A DNA stretch of 64,000 nucleotides from an uncultured Pelagibacteraceae bacterium (GTDB lineage: Bacteria > Pseudomonadota > Alphaproteobacteria > Pelagibacterales > Pelagibacteraceae). The translations under genes and the position numbers were made by a program. Below the pieces are notes generated by a model. That model had not been told where the DNA came from, did no database searches, and was given only the letters and a program-made list of their open reading frames with translations. This document shows positions 49,717 to 58,100 of this stretch, piece after piece; within the stretch, counting starts at the first letter, position 1; every line of letters begins with the position of its first letter. The stretch covers positions 124,001 through 188,000 of the forward strand of contig CABXZD010000001.1 in NCBI GenBank assembly GCA_902516465.1. Direction: 5' to 3'.

Positions 49717-49799
49717 AATTGTAATTGATTACTATTCTCAAAAAAAAAATAGGTTTATCACAACTACGTGACATAATGTTAGTATTTTTTTTATTATAG

Positions 49800-49831
49800 A
49801 TACTTGACTATTTTAGTCGGGTTTATATATA
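49800..49831 (+). promoter_or_regulatory. suf operon promoter with overlapping IscR type-1-like operator
   Basis: ATACTTGACTATTTTAGTCGGGTTT (49800-49824); TTGACT -35 at 49804-49809 and TATATA -10 at 49826-49831 (16-bp spacer). Confidence 0.8.
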
Positions 49832-49851
49832 CCCCAGTAAAACAACGATTT

Positions 49852-50277
49852 ATGAAACTTACATCTAAGGGCAGATATGCGGTAATGGCTTTAGTGGATC
49901 TGGCAAAATTTAATAACATTAATCCAGTTTCTTTAAGAGATATCTCACTAAGACAGGGGATCTCTTTAGATTATTTAGAGCAGATATTCGCGAAATTAAG
50001 AAAGAAAGAAATAGTTCAAAGTGTAAGAGGAACACAAGGAGGATATATTCTAAACAAAAAAGCTAAAGAAATAAAACTAACGAATATTTTTGAAGCAGTA
50101 GACGAAAAAGTAAAAACTGTGCAGTGCAAAAAAGAGTCAAAAAAAGGATGTAATGGTAAACTAGTAAAATGTTTAACCCATAATCTTTGGGATGAACTTG
50201 AGAGTCACATAAATAATTTTTTTGATAAAAAAAGTTTAGATGATTTAGTTAAAGATAATGAAGAGAAAAGAGTTTAA
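49852..50277 (+). CDS. iscR: Rrf2-family Fe-S regulator, IscR-like
   Basis: [61 protein letters not shown]-x7-C-x6-CLTH cluster; ORF-track TTG start 49804 lies in promoter. Confidence 0.9.
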
Positions 50278-50279
50278 CA

Positions 50280-51722
50280 ATGGACACTAGAGAAAAAGAT
50301 ATAGAAAATTTAAAAGATTACAAATATGGTTTTTCAACCGATATTGAAAACATAAGAGCGCCAAAGGGTTTAAATGAAGATGTAATCAAGTTTATTTCAA
50401 ATATCAAGAAGGAACCAAAATGGATGTTAGATTTTAGATTAAAGTCATTTAAAAGACTTCAAAACTTAAAAGAACCAGATTGGCAAAAACCAAAATATCC
50501 AAAAATAGATTATCAGGACTTGTATTATTATTCAGCGCCCAAAAGCATGAGTGATAAACCCAAAAGTCTTGACGAGCTTGATCCAAAACTTTTAGAAACA
50601 TATAAGAAGCTAGGTATTCCATTACAAGAACAAGCAAGATTAAATGGTATTGCTATTGATGCTGTTTTTGATTCAGTTTCGGTTGCAACAACATTCAAAG
50701 ATGAATTAACTAAACAAGGAATAATTTTTTGCTCTATGTCTGAGGCTATTCAAAAACATTCAGATTTAGTTAAAAAATATTTAGGAACCGTTATTCCAAC
50801 AACAGATCATTTTTTTGCGACATTAAATTCTGCTGTATTTACGGATGGGTCGTTTGTATATATTCCTGAAGGTGTCAGATGTCCTATGGAACTATCAACT
50901 TATTTTAGAATTAACGCATCACAAACGGGACAATTTGAAAGAACTTTAATTATAGCAGATAAAGGAAGTTATGTAAGTTATCTAGAGGGTTGTACTGCAC
51001 CAATGAGAGATGAAAATCAACTTCATGCAGCTAACGTAGAATTAATTGCTCTCGATGATGCTGAAATAAAATATTCTACAGTACAAAATTGGTATCCTGG
51101 AGATGAAAACGGTAAAGGAGGAATATATAATTTTGTGACTAAAAGAGGCTTATGCAAAGGTAGAAATTCTAAAATTTCTTGGACACAAGTAGAAACGGGC
51201 TCAGCCATAACATGGAAATACCCTAGTTGTATATTAAAAGGAGATAATTCAATTGGGGAATTTTATTCAATTGCAATTACCAATAATCATCAAAAAGCTG
51301 ATACCGGAACTAAGATGATACACTTAGGAAAAAATACAAAGAGTAAAATTATATCAAAAGGTATTAGCGCAGGATTTTCTGATATGACTTATAGAGGATT
51401 AGTTGACATTAATCCAAAGGCAAAAAATTCAAGCAATTATACTCAGTGTGACTCCTTATTAATGGGTAATAAATGTGGGGCTCACACTGTTCCATATATA
51501 AAAAACAAAAATTTTAATTCCAATATAGCACATGAAGCTACGACTTCTAAAATAAGTGAAGAACAACTACACTATTGCCAACAAAGAGGCTTAAACCCAG
51601 AGGAGGCTGTTGGATTAATTGTAAACGGATTTTGTAAAGAAGTGCTTCAACAATTACCAATGGAATTTGCAGTAGAGGCTCAAAAACTCGTGGGTATTAG
51701 CTTAGAGGGGAGTGTTGGCTAA
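50280..51722 (+). CDS. sufB: Fe-S cluster assembly protein SufB
   Basis: [51 protein letters not shown]. Confidence 0.96.
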
Positions 51723-52456
51723 TGTTAAAAATAAATAATTTAAATGCCAACATTGAAGATAAATCAATTTTAAAAGATTTTTCACTTAATATTAATCCTG
51801 GTGAAGTTCATGCAATTATGGGCCCAAATGGTTCTGGTAAAAGCACATTATCAAACATCTTATCAGGTAAAAAGGGTTATGAAATTTCTGGGGAAGTACT
51901 TTTTGAGAATAAAAATTTATTTGAACTTGAAACTGAGGAAAGAGCACACAAAGGAATATTTTTAGCTTTTCAGTATCCATTAGAGATTCCAGGTGTAAAT
52001 ACAAATATATTTTTGAAAACTTCTTTAAATGCAATAAGAAAAGCAAAAGGAGAAAAAGAACTTGATGCAATAGAATTTTTAAAATTGGTAAAAGAAAAGG
52101 CTAAAGAATTAAAATTTGATGAAGAAAAGTTAAATAGGCAATTAAATGTTGGTTTTTCTGGGGGAGAAAAAAAGAAAAACGAAATTTTACAAATGTCTAT
52201 GTTATCTCCTAAATTATCTATTTTAGATGAAACTGACTCTGGTTTGGATATTGATGCTTTAAAGGTTGTATCTGATGGAGTAAACACATTAAGAAATAAA
52301 GATAACTCTTTTTTAATAATCACTCACTATCAAAGATTATTAGATTACATAAAACCTGATTTTGTTCATGTTTTAATGAATGGGAAAATAATTAAGTCTG
52401 GAGGACCAGAACTAGCATTAGAATTAGAAAAAAAAGGGTATGAAAATTTTAATTAA
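51722..52456 (+). CDS. sufC: Fe-S cluster assembly ATPase SufC
   Basis: GPNGSGKSTLSNILSG, FLAFQYPLEIPGV, SGGEKKKNEILQM. Confidence 0.96.
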   Translation: MLKINNLNANIEDKSILKDFSLNINPGEVHAIMGPNGSGKSTLSNILSGKKGYEISGEVLFENKNLFELETEERAHKGIFLAFQYPLEIPGVNTNIFLKTSLNAIRKAKGEKELDAIEFLKLVKEKAKELKFDEEKLNRQLNVGFSGGEKKKNEILQMSMLSPKLSILDETDSGLDIDALKVVSDGVNTLRNKDNSFLIITHYQRLLDYIKPDFVHVLMNGKIIKSGGPELALELEKKGYENFN

Positions 52457-53704
52457 ATGACTGAAAAAATTAAAACAGATTTTGAAAAAACAGTTAAAAC
52501 TTCAGCTTTTTCTGAAAAAGATGTTGCGTTAAAAGAAAAATACTTAAATAGATTTATAGAGAATGGCTTCCCAAGTAGAAAACTTGAAAATTGGAAATTC
52601 TCGGATCTAAATCAGATTATAAAAAAAAATATTGGTGAATTAAGCTTTTATAATAATGATTCACTTCCTAACAAAGTTGACACATCAATTTTTGTTGAGG
52701 GCTTAGAACATAATAAAATTATTTTCATAAATGGAAGAGTAGAAAAGATTGATTTTACTTATGAAGACCAAGATAAAATAAAGATTAACGATGACTTTAA
52801 ATTTATGGACGAATTTAAAAACAGTAATTCTTTATTATCTCTAAATAATGCTTTCGCAAATAAATGCTACAAAATTACACTTAAAAAAGGTTATTCTATG
52901 AAAAAACCTCTTGTGATCTACCATACTACAAATGAAAAAATAAAATCTAGAAATTTAAATTTGAGATTAGAATTTGAATTAGAGCAAAATAGCTCTTTAA
53001 GATTAATTGATTTGTTTAAAGATGAAGCAGAAAATAATTTTGTAAATATTTTTTATAATTTTGACTTAAAAGAAGATGCAATTTTAAAAAATTATAAGAT
53101 TGACAAAGTTATTAATCAAAACATCCGGTATTCATATAATAATATTGAACAAGGTAAAAACAGTGTTTCCGAAACTTTTATTTTGTCATCTGGCTCGAAT
53201 TTTTCAAAAAATGAGATTAATTGTAACTTAAAAGGAGAATATTCTTCAGCATTTATAAATGGTATTTTCTCCTTAAATAATGAGCAACACCATGAAGTAA
53301 GAACCATAATAAATCATTTAATTGAAAACACAAAAAGTTTTCAATTAATTAAAAGTGTTTTAGGAAAAAATTCAAAATCTGTATATCAGGGTAAAATTTT
53401 TGTGGACTCAAAAGCACAAAAAACTGACGGATATCAATTAAGTAAAGCAATTTTACTTGACGAAACTTCTGAATTTAATGCCAAGCCTGAATTAGAAATT
53501 TATGCCGATGATGTAAAATGTTCTCATGGTTCTGCGTCTGGAAGTCTAGATGAAAACTCTATATTTTATTTAATGTCTAGAGGGCTGAATTATCAACAGT
53601 CAAAAGAACTTTTAATTAACGGATATTTATTAGATGTAGTTGAAAAAATTACAGACTCTGAAATAAAAAATTTGATTAAAAGTATGGTTGGAATAAGTGA
53701 ATGA
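52457..53704 (+). CDS. sufD: Fe-S cluster assembly protein SufD
   Basis: FPSRKLENWKFSDLN, KPELEIYADDVKCSHGSASGSLDENSIFYLMSRGL. Confidence 0.93.
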   Translation: MTEKIKTDFEKTVKTSAFSEKDVALKEKYLNRFIENGFPSRKLENWKFSDLNQIIKKNIGELSFYNNDSLPNKVDTSIFVEGLEHNKIIFINGRVEKIDFTYEDQDKIKINDDFKFMDEFKNSNSLLSLNNAFANKCYKITLKKGYSMKKPLVIYHTTNEKIKSRNLNLRLEFELEQNSSLRLIDLFKDEAENNFVNIFYNFDLKEDAILKNYKIDKVINQNIRYSYNNIEQGKNSVSETFILSSGSNFSKNEINCNLKGEYSSAFINGIFSLNNEQHHEVRTIINHLIENTKSFQLIKSVLGKNSKSVYQGKIFVDSKAQKTDGYQLSKAILLDETSEFNAKPELEIYADDVKCSHGSASGSLDENSIFYLMSRGLNYQQSKELLINGYLLDVVEKITDSEIKNLIKSMVGISE

Positions 53705-54918
53705 ATATAGATAATATAAAAAAAGAATTTCCTATTTTTGATGAAAAAATTCAAAATAATGATTTAGTTTATTTAGATAGTGCTAACTCATCACAAAAAC
53801 CAAAAGTTGTTATAGATAGAATTAATGAATTTTATACTAAACAATTTTCAAATGTAGGGAGAAGTATTCATTATTTAGCAGTAGCTGCTACGAATTTGTA
53901 TGAAAATACAAGATCCTCAGTTCAAAAATATATAAACGCCAAAGACAAAAATGAGATTGTTTTCACAAAAGGAGCTACAGAGGCACTAAATTTAGTAGCA
54001 AATACTTTAGGTCAAAAACATTTAGAGGAAGGTGATGAAATATTACTAACTGAATTAGAACATCATTCTAATTATGTACCTTGGCACTATTTAAGGAAAT
54101 CGAAAAACATTAAGATTAATTTTGCAGAAATTAATGAAGTAGGTGAAATACCGATAGAAAATATTGAAAAAAAAATTACACCAAAAACAAAGATTATAGC
54201 TATTAATCATTTATCAAATGTAACAGGGGCAATTTTGCCAATAAAAGAAATTACTAACTTAGCTCACTCTAAAGGTATCATAGTAGTAGTAGATGGTTGT
54301 CAGGGAGCCCCTCATTTAAAAATTGATGTGCAAGACCTTGACTGTGATTTTTATGCAATTTCATGTCATAAAATGTATGGACCCACTGGATTGGGTATCT
54401 TGTATGGTAAAAAGAAATGGCTTGAAGAGTTACCTCCCTATCAAGGTGGAGGCGGAATGATAAAAGAGGTAAAGAAAGACAGAATAACATATGGTGATCT
54501 ACCAAATAAATATGAAGCTGGGACAATGGCTACAGCTCAAGTTATAGCGTTCGACCAATCTATTAAATTTTTAGAAAGTATTGGTATTGAAAATATCGTT
54601 AAACACGAAAAAGATCTAATTGAATATGGTCAAGAAATTTTAAAAAAAAATAATTCTGTTAAATTAATTGGTAATCCAAAAAATAAAGGTGGGGTATTAT
54701 CTTTTACAATAGAAGGGGTGCACCCACATGATATTGCAACAATTTTAGATGAGGATGGCGTAGCAATAAGAGCTGGCCATCATTGTTGTCAAATATTACA
54801 TGATAAACTTGAAATACCAGCAAGTGCTAGGGCTTCAGTCGGAGTATATAATACAAAAGAAGATTTTGACAAATTAAACGAGTCGATTAATAAATGTAAA
54901 AAAATTTTTAATCTATAA
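53701..54918 (+). CDS. sufS: Cysteine desulfurase SufS
   Basis: YLDSANSSQKPKVVIDRI, FTKGATEALNLVANTLG, SCHKMYGPTGLGILYGKK, IRAGHHCCQ. Confidence 0.96.
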   Translation: MNIDNIKKEFPIFDEKIQNNDLVYLDSANSSQKPKVVIDRINEFYTKQFSNVGRSIHYLAVAATNLYENTRSSVQKYINAKDKNEIVFTKGATEALNLVANTLGQKHLEEGDEILLTELEHHSNYVPWHYLRKSKNIKINFAEINEVGEIPIENIEKKITPKTKIIAINHLSNVTGAILPIKEITNLAHSKGIIVVVDGCQGAPHLKIDVQDLDCDFYAISCHKMYGPTGLGILYGKKKWLEELPPYQGGGGMIKEVKKDRITYGDLPNKYEAGTMATAQVIAFDQSIKFLESIGIENIVKHEKDLIEYGQEILKKNNSVKLIGNPKNKGGVLSFTIEGVHPHDIATILDEDGVAIRAGHHCCQILHDKLEIPASARASVGVYNTKEDFDKLNESINKCKKIFNL

Positions 54919-55382
54919 TGAATTTAAAAGAACTTTATCAAGAACTAATCCTAGAACATGGAAAAAATCCAAGAAATTTAGGTAAACCAGAAAATTTTAA
55001 TAAAGATGCGAAAGGGAATAACCCTTTATGTGGGGATAATGTGCACGTTTATCTAAAATTAAATGATCAGCGAAAGGTTGAGGATATATCTTTTGAGGGA
55101 AGTGGGTGTGCAATTTCAATGGCTTCAGCTTCAATTATGACAGACTTAATAAAAGGTAAAAGTGACAATGAAGCTAAAGAAATAATAGAAGATTTTTTAG
55201 GAATGATTAAAGAGAATCCTAGTTTAAAATCTAATATATTAAAAGAAGATGATAAAACTAAATTGATGTGTTTGTCAGGAGTAAAACAATATCCAATGAG
55301 AGTTAAATGTGCTACATTATCGTGGCATACTTTAGTTTCTGCAATGCAAAATGATGGAAAACAAGTAAGCACGGAAGATTAA
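54918..55382 (+). CDS. sufU: SufU-type scaffold/sulfur-transfer protein
   Basis: ELILEHGKNPRNLG, NPLCGDNV, GSGCAISMASASIMTDLIKG, long insertion then RVKCATLSWHTL. Confidence 0.85.
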   Translation: MNLKELYQELILEHGKNPRNLGKPENFNKDAKGNNPLCGDNVHVYLKLNDQRKVEDISFEGSGCAISMASASIMTDLIKGKSDNEAKEIIEDFLGMIKENPSLKSNILKEDDKTKLMCLSGVKQYPMRVKCATLSWHTLVSAMQNDGKQVSTED

Positions 55383-55387
55383 TATTT

Positions 55388-55684
55388 ATGAAAACAAAAG
55401 AGAAAGTAATAGAGGAAATAAAAAAAATTTATGATCCTGAGTTGCCGGTAAATATTTACGAATTAGGCTTAATATACGACATTAAGATAAATGGTACAAA
55501 AGCAGAAATCAAAATGACTTTAACTACACCTAATTGTCCTGTTGCAGAAAGTTTACCAAAAGAAGTTAAAGAGGGGGCAATGCAAGTAGATGAAATAGAT
55601 AGTGTAGACCTTGAATTAGTTTGGGACCCGCCTTGGACGAAAGACATGATGTCTGATGCAGCGAAATTGGAGTTAAATTTATAA
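55388..55684 (+). CDS. sufT: SufT / MIP18 (DUF59) family Fe-S assembly protein
   Basis: KIYDPELPVNIYELGLIYDI, MTLTTPNCPVAESLP, VWDPPWTKDMMSD. Confidence 0.9.
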   Translation: MKTKEKVIEEIKKIYDPELPVNIYELGLIYDIKINGTKAEIKMTLTTPNCPVAESLPKEVKEGAMQVDEIDSVDLELVWDPPWTKDMMSDAAKLELNL

Positions 55685-56019
55685 TGGAGCCTATAATTAA
55701 ATTGAGTGATAACGCAGCTAATAGGATAAAAGAAATTATGGCTAGTGCAGAAAAAGAGGCTCTAGGAGTAAGAGTAACGGTTAAGTCTGGCGGTTGTGCT
55801 GGCATGTCTTATGTTATGGAATATCTAAAAGAGGTTAATCCAAATGATGAAATTATTGAAGATAAAGGAGTTAAAGTATTTATAGACTCTGCAGCTGTGA
55901 TGTACTTATTAGGTACTGAAATGGATTATAAAAAAGAGGATTTTTCGTCAACTTTTGTTTTTAATAATCCTAATGAAACAGAAAGATGTGGTTGTGGCGA
56001 GTCTTTCAAGGTTAATTAA
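55684..56019 (+). CDS. sufA: A-type Fe-S carrier protein
   Basis: VTVKSGGCAGMSYVMEY, ERCGCGESFKVN. Confidence 0.9.
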   Translation: MEPIIKLSDNAANRIKEIMASAEKEALGVRVTVKSGGCAGMSYVMEYLKEVNPNDEIIEDKGVKVFIDSAAVMYLLGTEMDYKKEDFSSTFVFNNPNETERCGCGESFKVN

Positions 56020-56090: not shown

Positions 56091-58100
56091 ATGAGTAAAG
56101 AAAAAATTTCACAATTAGAATCATTAAGAGCTAAATCAAAAAGAGAAGCAGACTTGTTCTTTTCTTTGTGTGAAAATGGTCAAAATTTCGTAGAAAGTAA
56201 AAAATTAAAAGATGCTTTGGATCACTCTGGTCTAAAGCCAAATGATAATAGACTTCAAAGCCTCTTTAAGAGACTTGAAGCTCATGGTGATAAAATTGTT
56301 TTTGAGGACTTTATTAGCATTATAAGAACATCTGGTCTTTTAGTAGAAAAAGCTTTGAGAGGGCAGTTAGCATTGCCTGATTTTACTAATTTTTCAAAAA
56401 ATATAGATAAAATTTTTGATGAAGTTAAAAAAATCAAATCTGGTGAATTGGCATCATATATTCCACCGCTTGCAGAAGTTGATCCAGATCAATTTGGTAT
56501 TTCTATAGTTACAATTGATGGTCAAATTTACCAAAGAGGTGACTCACAAACAGATTTTTCTTTTCAATCAATGTGCAAACCATTTAATTACTGTTTTGCA
56601 CTCGAAGCATTAGGTTTGGAAGAGGTTTCAAAACATGTAGGGAAGGAACCTTCAGGAAGACAATTTGATGATTTAACTTTATTGGCTAGATCAGCTTCAA
56701 GTAAGAGTTTTTCACGTGTCCCTTTTAATCCAATGGTAAATGCTGGTGCAATTATGACAGCTGGTTTAATTGACCCTAACGACTCTTTTACCCAAAGACT
56801 AAGACACATTAGACAACAATTTGGTCGCCTTATAGGTTGGACTGCAGATGATAGCCCTAGTGCTGAGATGCCAAGATTTAATAAAAGTATGGCACGTCAA
56901 GAAAATTTCAAAGGCTATAATAACATCGCCATGGGATATTTATTGATGGCAACTGGTAGTTTGCCTCATACAAAAACTGATCTACATATGGATATACATC
57001 CAGATGAAGATGAATTTGATTTTTATATTGAACCAGCTGTTACCGAGGCACTAAAACTTTATTTTAGCATTTGTTCCTTAGAAATGACTGCTACCGATGT
57101 TGCGATGGCAGCAGCCACTCTTGCAAACAGTGGTGTTTGTCCTATTTCTCAAGATCGTGTTCTTAGTCAAAAAACTGTTCGTAATTGTTTACCAGTACTT
57201 CAGTCTAGCGGAATGTATAATGCCAGCGGTGCTTTTTTCCAACAAGTTGGTTTACCTGCAAAAAGTGGAGTTGGTGGAGGTGTGCTACTGGTTGTTCCAC
57301 AACTTATGGGAATTTGTATTTTTTCTCCACGTTTGGATGCTCAGGGTAACAGTGTGAGAGGAATAGAGATGTCTAAAAGACTAACATCAAAATATCTTGT
57401 TCATACTTTTGATGGCACAATGACAGATACTGATCGACTGGATCCCAAATTACCTATTGCTAGATGGGAGGCAAACAGTTGTGGAGAGGCAATTTGGGCC
57501 GCAAGCAACGGTAACATAAGAACTTTAGAAAGTTTAGTTAGTCAACAGCGAGATCTTCAAACAGGTGATTATGATATTAGAACACCTTTGCATCTTGCTT
57601 CAGCAGAGGGCCAATTGGAAGTTGTAAAATTTTTATTAGATCATGGTGTTAAACCTATACCTGATCGTTGGGGAGGTTATCCCATCTCTGATGCGAGAAA
57701 TAATAATCATAAAAAGATTGTAGATTTATTTGAAAAATTAGACATCAAATATACCGAGCCTTTCCATTTAGTTGAAAATCCAAAAGGTAAAACCGATAAA
57801 ATTGCTAAATTTGATGATGAACTTATGGTTATCGAGTTACTTTTTGCAGCAACAGAAAATAATGTAGATAATATTCGTCATTTAGTTGCTAAAGGTGTGC
57901 CAGTGAATGCAGGAGATTATGATTTAAGAACTGCTTTACATTTAGCATCAGCCGAAGGTAATTTAGAGGCAGTAGAATATTTAGTAACCCATGGTCATCC
58001 TCTGAATGTTCGTGACCGTTGGGGTGCTACACCATTAGACGAAGCTAAAAGAGAAAAAAGAAAATCGGTAGTTGACTTTCTCAACAAGTATAAATCTTAG
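56091..58100 (+). CDS. glsA: Glutaminase with N-terminal helical/EF-hand-like region and C-terminal ankyrin repeats
   Basis: 669 aa; SFQSMCKPFNYCFALEALG, GKEPSGRQFDDLTLL, NPMVNAGAIMTAGL, YNNIAMGYLLMATG, PAKSGVGGGVLLVVP; ankyrin motifs TPLHLASAEGQLEVVKFLLDHG and TALHLASAEGNLEAVEYLVTHG. Confidence 0.92.
   Translation: MSKEKISQLESLRAKSKREADLFFSLCENGQNFVESKKLKDALDHSGLKPNDNRLQSLFKRLEAHGDKIVFEDFISIIRTSGLLVEKALRGQLALPDFTNFSKNIDKIFDEVKKIKSGELASYIPPLAEVDPDQFGISIVTIDGQIYQRGDSQTDFSFQSMCKPFNYCFALEALGLEEVSKHVGKEPSGRQFDDLTLLARSASSKSFSRVPFNPMVNAGAIMTAGLIDPNDSFTQRLRHIRQQFGRLIGWTADDSPSAEMPRFNKSMARQENFKGYNNIAMGYLLMATGSLPHTKTDLHMDIHPDEDEFDFYIEPAVTEALKLYFSICSLEMTATDVAMAAATLANSGVCPISQDRVLSQKTVRNCLPVLQSSGMYNASGAFFQQVGLPAKSGVGGGVLLVVPQLMGICIFSPRLDAQGNSVRGIEMSKRLTSKYLVHTFDGTMTDTDRLDPKLPIARWEANSCGEAIWAASNGNIRTLESLVSQQRDLQTGDYDIRTPLHLASAEGQLEVVKFLLDHGVKPIPDRWGGYPISDARNNNHKKIVDLFEKLDIKYTEPFHLVENPKGKTDKIAKFDDELMVIELLFAATENNVDNIRHLVAKGVPVNAGDYDLRTALHLASAEGNLEAVEYLVTHGHPLNVRDRWGATPLDEAKREKRKSVVDFLNKYKS
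57486..58097 (+). repeat. In-tandem duplicated ankyrin module inside glutaminase (348-bp period)
   Basis: GDYDIRTPLHLASAEGQLEVVKFLLDHG..DRWGGYPISDA (from 57564) versus GDYDLRTALHLASAEGNLEAVEYLVTHG..DRWGATPLDEA (from 57912). Confidence 0.85.

Follow-up and report, generated by a model that had tools for sequence, protein, structure and literature searches.

A putative IscR type-1 operator at the head of the SAR11 iscR-suf operon and its apparent loss together with iscR in one clade

The iscR operators of E. coli and other enterobacteria consist of a 25-bp palindrome that lies before iscR and over its promoter, with an autorepression logic, and the same arrangement is described here for SAR11. 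In the gammaproteobacterial control, Providencia stuartii (L226), two tandem sites precede iscR (24/25 and 23/25 matches), whereas SAR11 has a single site before iscR-suf. In the alphaproteobacterium Caulobacter crescentus, IscR likewise has a long ligand spacing (C95, C105, C112 and H115) and heads one Fe-S operon, isc-suf, which it represses when iron is sufficient, through a site that overlaps the -35 (PMC11475020). Caulobacter differs, however, in its regulon of about 300 genes, its iscS gene and the low resemblance of the site at its own promoter to its type-2 motif (PMC11475020). Rhodobacter sphaeroides also has an Rrf2 regulator heading isc-suf, a cluster-dependent repressor with a palindromic box over promoters, but this IscR has a single Cys ligand and many iron-uptake targets (PMC4618611), whereas the SAR11 regulator has a Cys3-His set and only the suf site is seen.

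An iron response of the suf genes is known from SAR11. Iron limitation of Ca. Pelagibacter ubique raised the mRNA of SAR11_0738-0745 1.76- to 2.44-fold; for the regulator's own mRNA, SAR11_0738, the rise had p = 0.062 (PMC2864753). This gene is listed as 'sufA, transcriptional regulator' and is the first of a run with the same gene order as the operon considered here (PMC2864753). The suf proteins showed no rise although their mRNAs did (Smith et al., PMC2864753), which points to additional post-transcriptional control at the level of translation.

The window, the whole 64-kb stretch of DNA analysed, carries the following features:

49800..49824, + strand: putative IscR type-1 operator, ATACTTGACTATTTTAGTCGGGTTT (consensus match, uniqueness, conservation among relatives)
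49804..49809, + strand: TTGACT, probable -35 hexamer inside the left half-site (seen in the sequence; promoter role predicted)
49826..49831, + strand: TATATA, probable -10 hexamer after a 16-bp spacer (seen in the sequence; promoter role predicted)
49852..50277, + strand: iscR, predicted Rrf2-family Fe-S sensing regulator, 141 aa, ATG start (profiles, alignment, fold model)
50280..51722, + strand: sufB (above the NCBIfam cut-off)
51722..52456, + strand: sufC (NCBIfam)
52457..53704, + strand: sufD (NCBIfam, just below the equivalog cut-off)
53701..54918, + strand: sufS, cysteine desulfurase (NCBIfam)
54918..55382, + strand: sufU/NifU-like (NCBIfam)
55388..55684, + strand: sufT-like SUF-associated protein, paaD in older annotation (NCBIfam)
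55684..56019, + strand: sufA/hesB-like A-type carrier, the last gene of the operon (NCBIfam)

The order iscR-sufB-C-D-S-U-T-A given by the initial annotation is borne out by the NCBIfam profiles, and iscR-sufBCDSUTA is the sole Fe-S cluster assembly operon of the host. Directly after it, at 56091-58100 (+), lies a gene for a 669-aa glutaminase with an N-terminal EF-hand_14 and C-terminal ankyrin repeats. This order of EF-hand, glutaminase and ankyrin domains is that of animal kidney-type glutaminase.

At 49800-49824, 24 of the 25 bases agree with the E. coli IscR type-1 consensus, ATASYYGACTRWWWYAGTCRRSTAT, the single mismatch being T for A at position 24. When up to three mismatches were allowed, this 25-mer was the sole match in the window (none was found in 100 shuffles) and also in the 1.04 Mb host assembly. 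The near-perfect operator over the suf promoter that had been read from the letters alone is therefore upheld, as are the positions of TTGACT and of TATATA 16 bp downstream of it. In an alignment of 93 sequences from the genus set, the TTGAC of the probable -35 is 100% conserved; columns 49825-49832 are about 78% conserved, with T49828 and A49829 at 100%. Transcription is predicted to begin at about 49838.

The start codon of iscR bears directly on this layout. The mechanical open reading frame starts at TTG 49804, inside the operator, and the initial annotation had judged this start to be wrong and placed the ATG at 49852. The alignment agrees: an ATG is found at the aligned M1 in 134/134 distinct relatives of the host family, and an in-frame stop lies at most 16 codons upstream of it in 114 of them, so ATG 49852 is the predicted start and TTG 49804 is rejected. 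The distance from the operator end to this ATG had been put at about 28 bp; the ATG was right, and the gap is 27 bp.

Conservation of the motif in relatives was a check set beforehand. The result is footprint-like within the genus, and the site extends to other SAR11 genera and a second family. At the level of the order, the pattern with up to three mismatches occurs in 215/297 genomes, and most host-genus genomes, like most of those in the second SAR11 family (f2, which includes AG-422-B15), have a single match. The strict form is found in 0/46 genomes from other genera of the host family; most of these genera keep iscR, with a diverged site in the corresponding position such as AATCCTGACTAAATCAGTAGGAATT. 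The 134 distinct regions upstream of iscR in the host family all reach 21/25 or more at 20-50 bp before the ATG, counted on the E. coli pattern or on one broadened for SAR11, whichever fits, against 4/1340 shuffled upstream regions. On the E. coli consensus alone, only 95/134 score at least 21 and the remainder 16-20; recognition of the diverged sites thus depends on the broadened pattern. Freshwater relatives of the Fonsibacter type (L223, L225) retain both iscR and the site.

An earlier conservation plot anchored on the motif could favour the motif, and the comparison was repeated with an unanchored MAFFT alignment of 93 sequences of the same type. Mean identity to the window was 0.87 for the operator and 0.78 for the -10 region, against 0.536 for the upstream spacer, 0.465 for the leader and 0.60 for iscR third codon positions. 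A weight matrix trained only on family f2 gave the window site 25.9, compared with 12.9 for the best of 1000 shuffles. The promoter layout varies across the family, since two genera, g5 and g6, have a degenerate left half-site and TTGACT. In a run of loci mostly from g5 (L039-L050), about 30 bp before iscR, many left half-sites and TTGACT are degenerate while the right half, AGTAGGAATT, is kept. The degeneracy in g5 suggests a weaker or rearranged control there. The iscR/hydrolase intergenic region holds a second conserved block, at 49744-49783, that is common to several SAR11 genera and has the core GTGACA/GCGACA. The block probably serves the alpha/beta hydrolase gene on the minus strand as its divergent promoter, which would read CTAACA-17 bp-GATAAA on that strand.

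The protein encoded at 49852..50277 is assigned as IscR by profile, predicted fold and invariant Cys3-His ligands. It is the only Rrf2 protein found in the host genome and scores 127.8 bits with the Rrf2 domain PF02082 (cut-off 30). Its best-scoring model is the IscR equivalog TIGR02010, at 177.3 bits, below the cut-off of 207.55. This shortfall reflects the cut-off, since the seven other alphaproteobacterial proteins tested (168-192 bits) all fall below it as well, while two gammaproteobacterial ones (217-221 bits) pass. The scores with the RirA profile NF008886 and the NsrR profile NF008240 are 50.4 bits each, far below cut-offs of 193 and 182. The best PDB sequence match is E. coli IscR, and the nearest PDB folds to the AlphaFold model (pLDDT 86) are 4hf2, 4hf1, 4hf0 and 4cic, all IscR.

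The putative cluster ligands are arranged as C92-x7-C100-x6-C107-x2-H110. This Cys3-His set, already noticed in the initial annotation, is kept in 133/134 family proteins, all but one copy with a broken frame, and is invariant across 26 diverse proteins, gammaproteobacterial ones included. The spacing is indeed longer than in E. coli, as had been remarked, but it is not unusual: it is ordinary in Alphaproteobacteria, for example in Caulobacter. Among the residues of the E. coli recognition helix and wing, Y41, E43, Q44 and R59 are kept in the window protein and position 40 is D, not S. The E43-Q44 pair is kept in 133/134 family proteins; residue 40 is variable, and in some proteins of the genus F replaces Y41. 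Base 19 of the operator is C in nearly all sequences of the host genus and A elsewhere. A coupling between residue 40 and this base was considered and set aside; it fits specificity drift but is confounded by descent.

The type-1 site is common to gamma- and alphaproteobacteria, in keeping with the earlier statement that it is conserved at great evolutionary distance. In family f2 the operon reads cysE-iscR-sufB..., with a cysE that scores above the TIGR01172 cut-off; here the operator precedes cysE, at a distance of about 740 bp from iscR. In two other alphaproteobacteria, the best site is 791 bp (L228) and 856 bp (L233) before iscR. These cases indicate that the operator goes with the operon head, also where a different gene comes first.

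A genome scan for further IscR targets had been proposed with the original reading and yielded none as strong as the suf site. With a relaxed core pattern, nine genomes of the genus gave only the suf site at 0-1 mismatches, and core matches with 2 mismatches were about as frequent as those of a reversed-pattern control. SAR11 IscR thus looks like a local rather than a global autoregulator, the single target being meant for type-1 sites only. One genome (G105, contig 4, 155749-155773) has a second near-consensus site, ACACTTGACTAAAATAGTCTGGTCT, with 3 mismatches.

In one part of SAR11 the regulator and its site appear to be absent together. No IscR was found in 8/8 genomes of genera g2 and g4. 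Six of these were searched further: none had an Rrf2 protein, sufB was present in 6/6, and their sufB upstream regions showed no operator by three matrices, the best scores lying in the shuffle range. Three of the six (G001, G007 and G158) are single-contig assemblies, 99-100% complete with contamination of at most 2%. At four loci without iscR (L142-L145, from G001, G007, G158 and G032), synteny is intact, with sufB as the very next gene after the divergent hydrolase. In a SufB tree, g2 and g4 form one clade (100/98 support) that is sister to g3 (95/93), which indicates that iscR and the operator were lost once; as evidence, the co-loss therefore counts as one event only. As judged from these genomes, the clade has lost iscR, all Rrf2 genes and the operator, and has kept suf. 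It is probably subclade IIIa. Genomes of the host genus in which iscR is missing (five checked: G115, G120, G124, G142 and G153) were rejected as further losses and are read as assembly gaps, since sufB is also cut or missing in them.

Taken together, the evidence makes it very probable that 49800-49824 is the operator of iscR-sufBCDSUTA and that the operon would be autorepressed by holo-IscR. This is the best reading because the site is conserved, iscR and the operator were lost together, the protein is assigned as IscR, and the mRNA of the operon rises about 2-fold under iron limitation; derepression on loss of iron fits repression by holo-IscR, as reported for Caulobacter. In the proposed mechanism, IscR made from the first gene would carry a [2Fe-2S] cluster on Cys92, Cys100, Cys107 and His110 when Fe-S clusters are sufficient. 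A holo-IscR dimer would then bind the palindrome over the -35 and just before the -10, blocking RNA polymerase. When iron or clusters are short, apo-IscR would leave the site and the operon would be derepressed.

The iron response could instead be carried by Fur or Irr, both of which are encoded in Ca. P. ubique (PMC2864753), with IscR acting at the site only as a weak modulator or activator. The conserved block at 49744-49783 could be taken to favour this, if regarded as an element without an assigned role, but its position suits the promoter of the divergent hydrolase better. Moreover, the conserved element over the promoter is the IscR type-1 palindrome, its place over the -35 and -10 is that of a repressor, and the operator and iscR were lost together while suf was kept, all of which make control by Fur or Irr improbable. 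It is somewhat less probable still that the protein is not IscR but resembles RirA, sensing iron through a [4Fe-4S] cluster and recognising a box like the one found here. Its C-x7-C spacing is reminiscent of RirA. Palindromes similar to the operator are also found in RirA boxes and in the Iron-Rhodo-box (PMC4618611). However, the protein scores 177 bits with the IscR profile versus 50 with that of RirA and 50 with that of NsrR, the fourth ligand, in CxTH, is conserved, iscR stands first in the suf operon, and the genome shows no other outstanding sites.

TTGACT serves as both -35 and half-site, and it could be argued that only the promoter hexamers are conserved and that the palindrome is a coincidence. 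There is very little chance of this, as the right half, 49814-49821, is 89-100% conserved except at 49819 despite falling within the promoter spacer, and the f2 weight matrix scores the site far above shuffles. Promoter spacers are not usually conserved. A role of the palindrome as an RNA hairpin, terminator or attenuator is just as hard to credit. A terminator-like stem was scored at 49802-49822, but it lies upstream of the predicted transcription start and no Rfam family matched in the window. Of 41 sequences whose right half is not AGTC, 40 have a stem short of 1-3 of its 7 pairs, yet the half-sites remain recognisable. A paper on structured RNAs of SAR11 makes no mention of suf.

Autorepression by holo-IscR is a known kind of circuit, found here in a new and important lineage, and the added value lies in its natural loss in one clade. 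A literature search found no paper describing an IscR circuit in SAR11, although an earlier prediction is possible, as Rodionov et al. 2006 may list such sites for SAR11. On balance, we favour the view that SAR11 IscR has shrunk to an autorepressor of one operon, its sole strong type-1 site being its own suf operator, and that one clade, probably IIIa, discarded both regulator and site and is a natural knock-out, its suf operon being expected to have lost the response to iron.

Finally, a type-1 operator has persisted between gamma- and alphaproteobacteria, and its place at the operon head is retained despite a change of first gene. SAR11 bacteria are among the most abundant marine heterotrophs, and the regulator and site assigned here would provide a missing link in the iron-limitation data of PMC2864753. 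At the time of that 2010 study, no genetic system for SAR11 knock-outs existed (PMC2864753). The single loss of iscR and its operator in one clade may serve as a natural mutant, so that the mechanism could be tested without genetics by comparing suf induction in Ia and IIIa.
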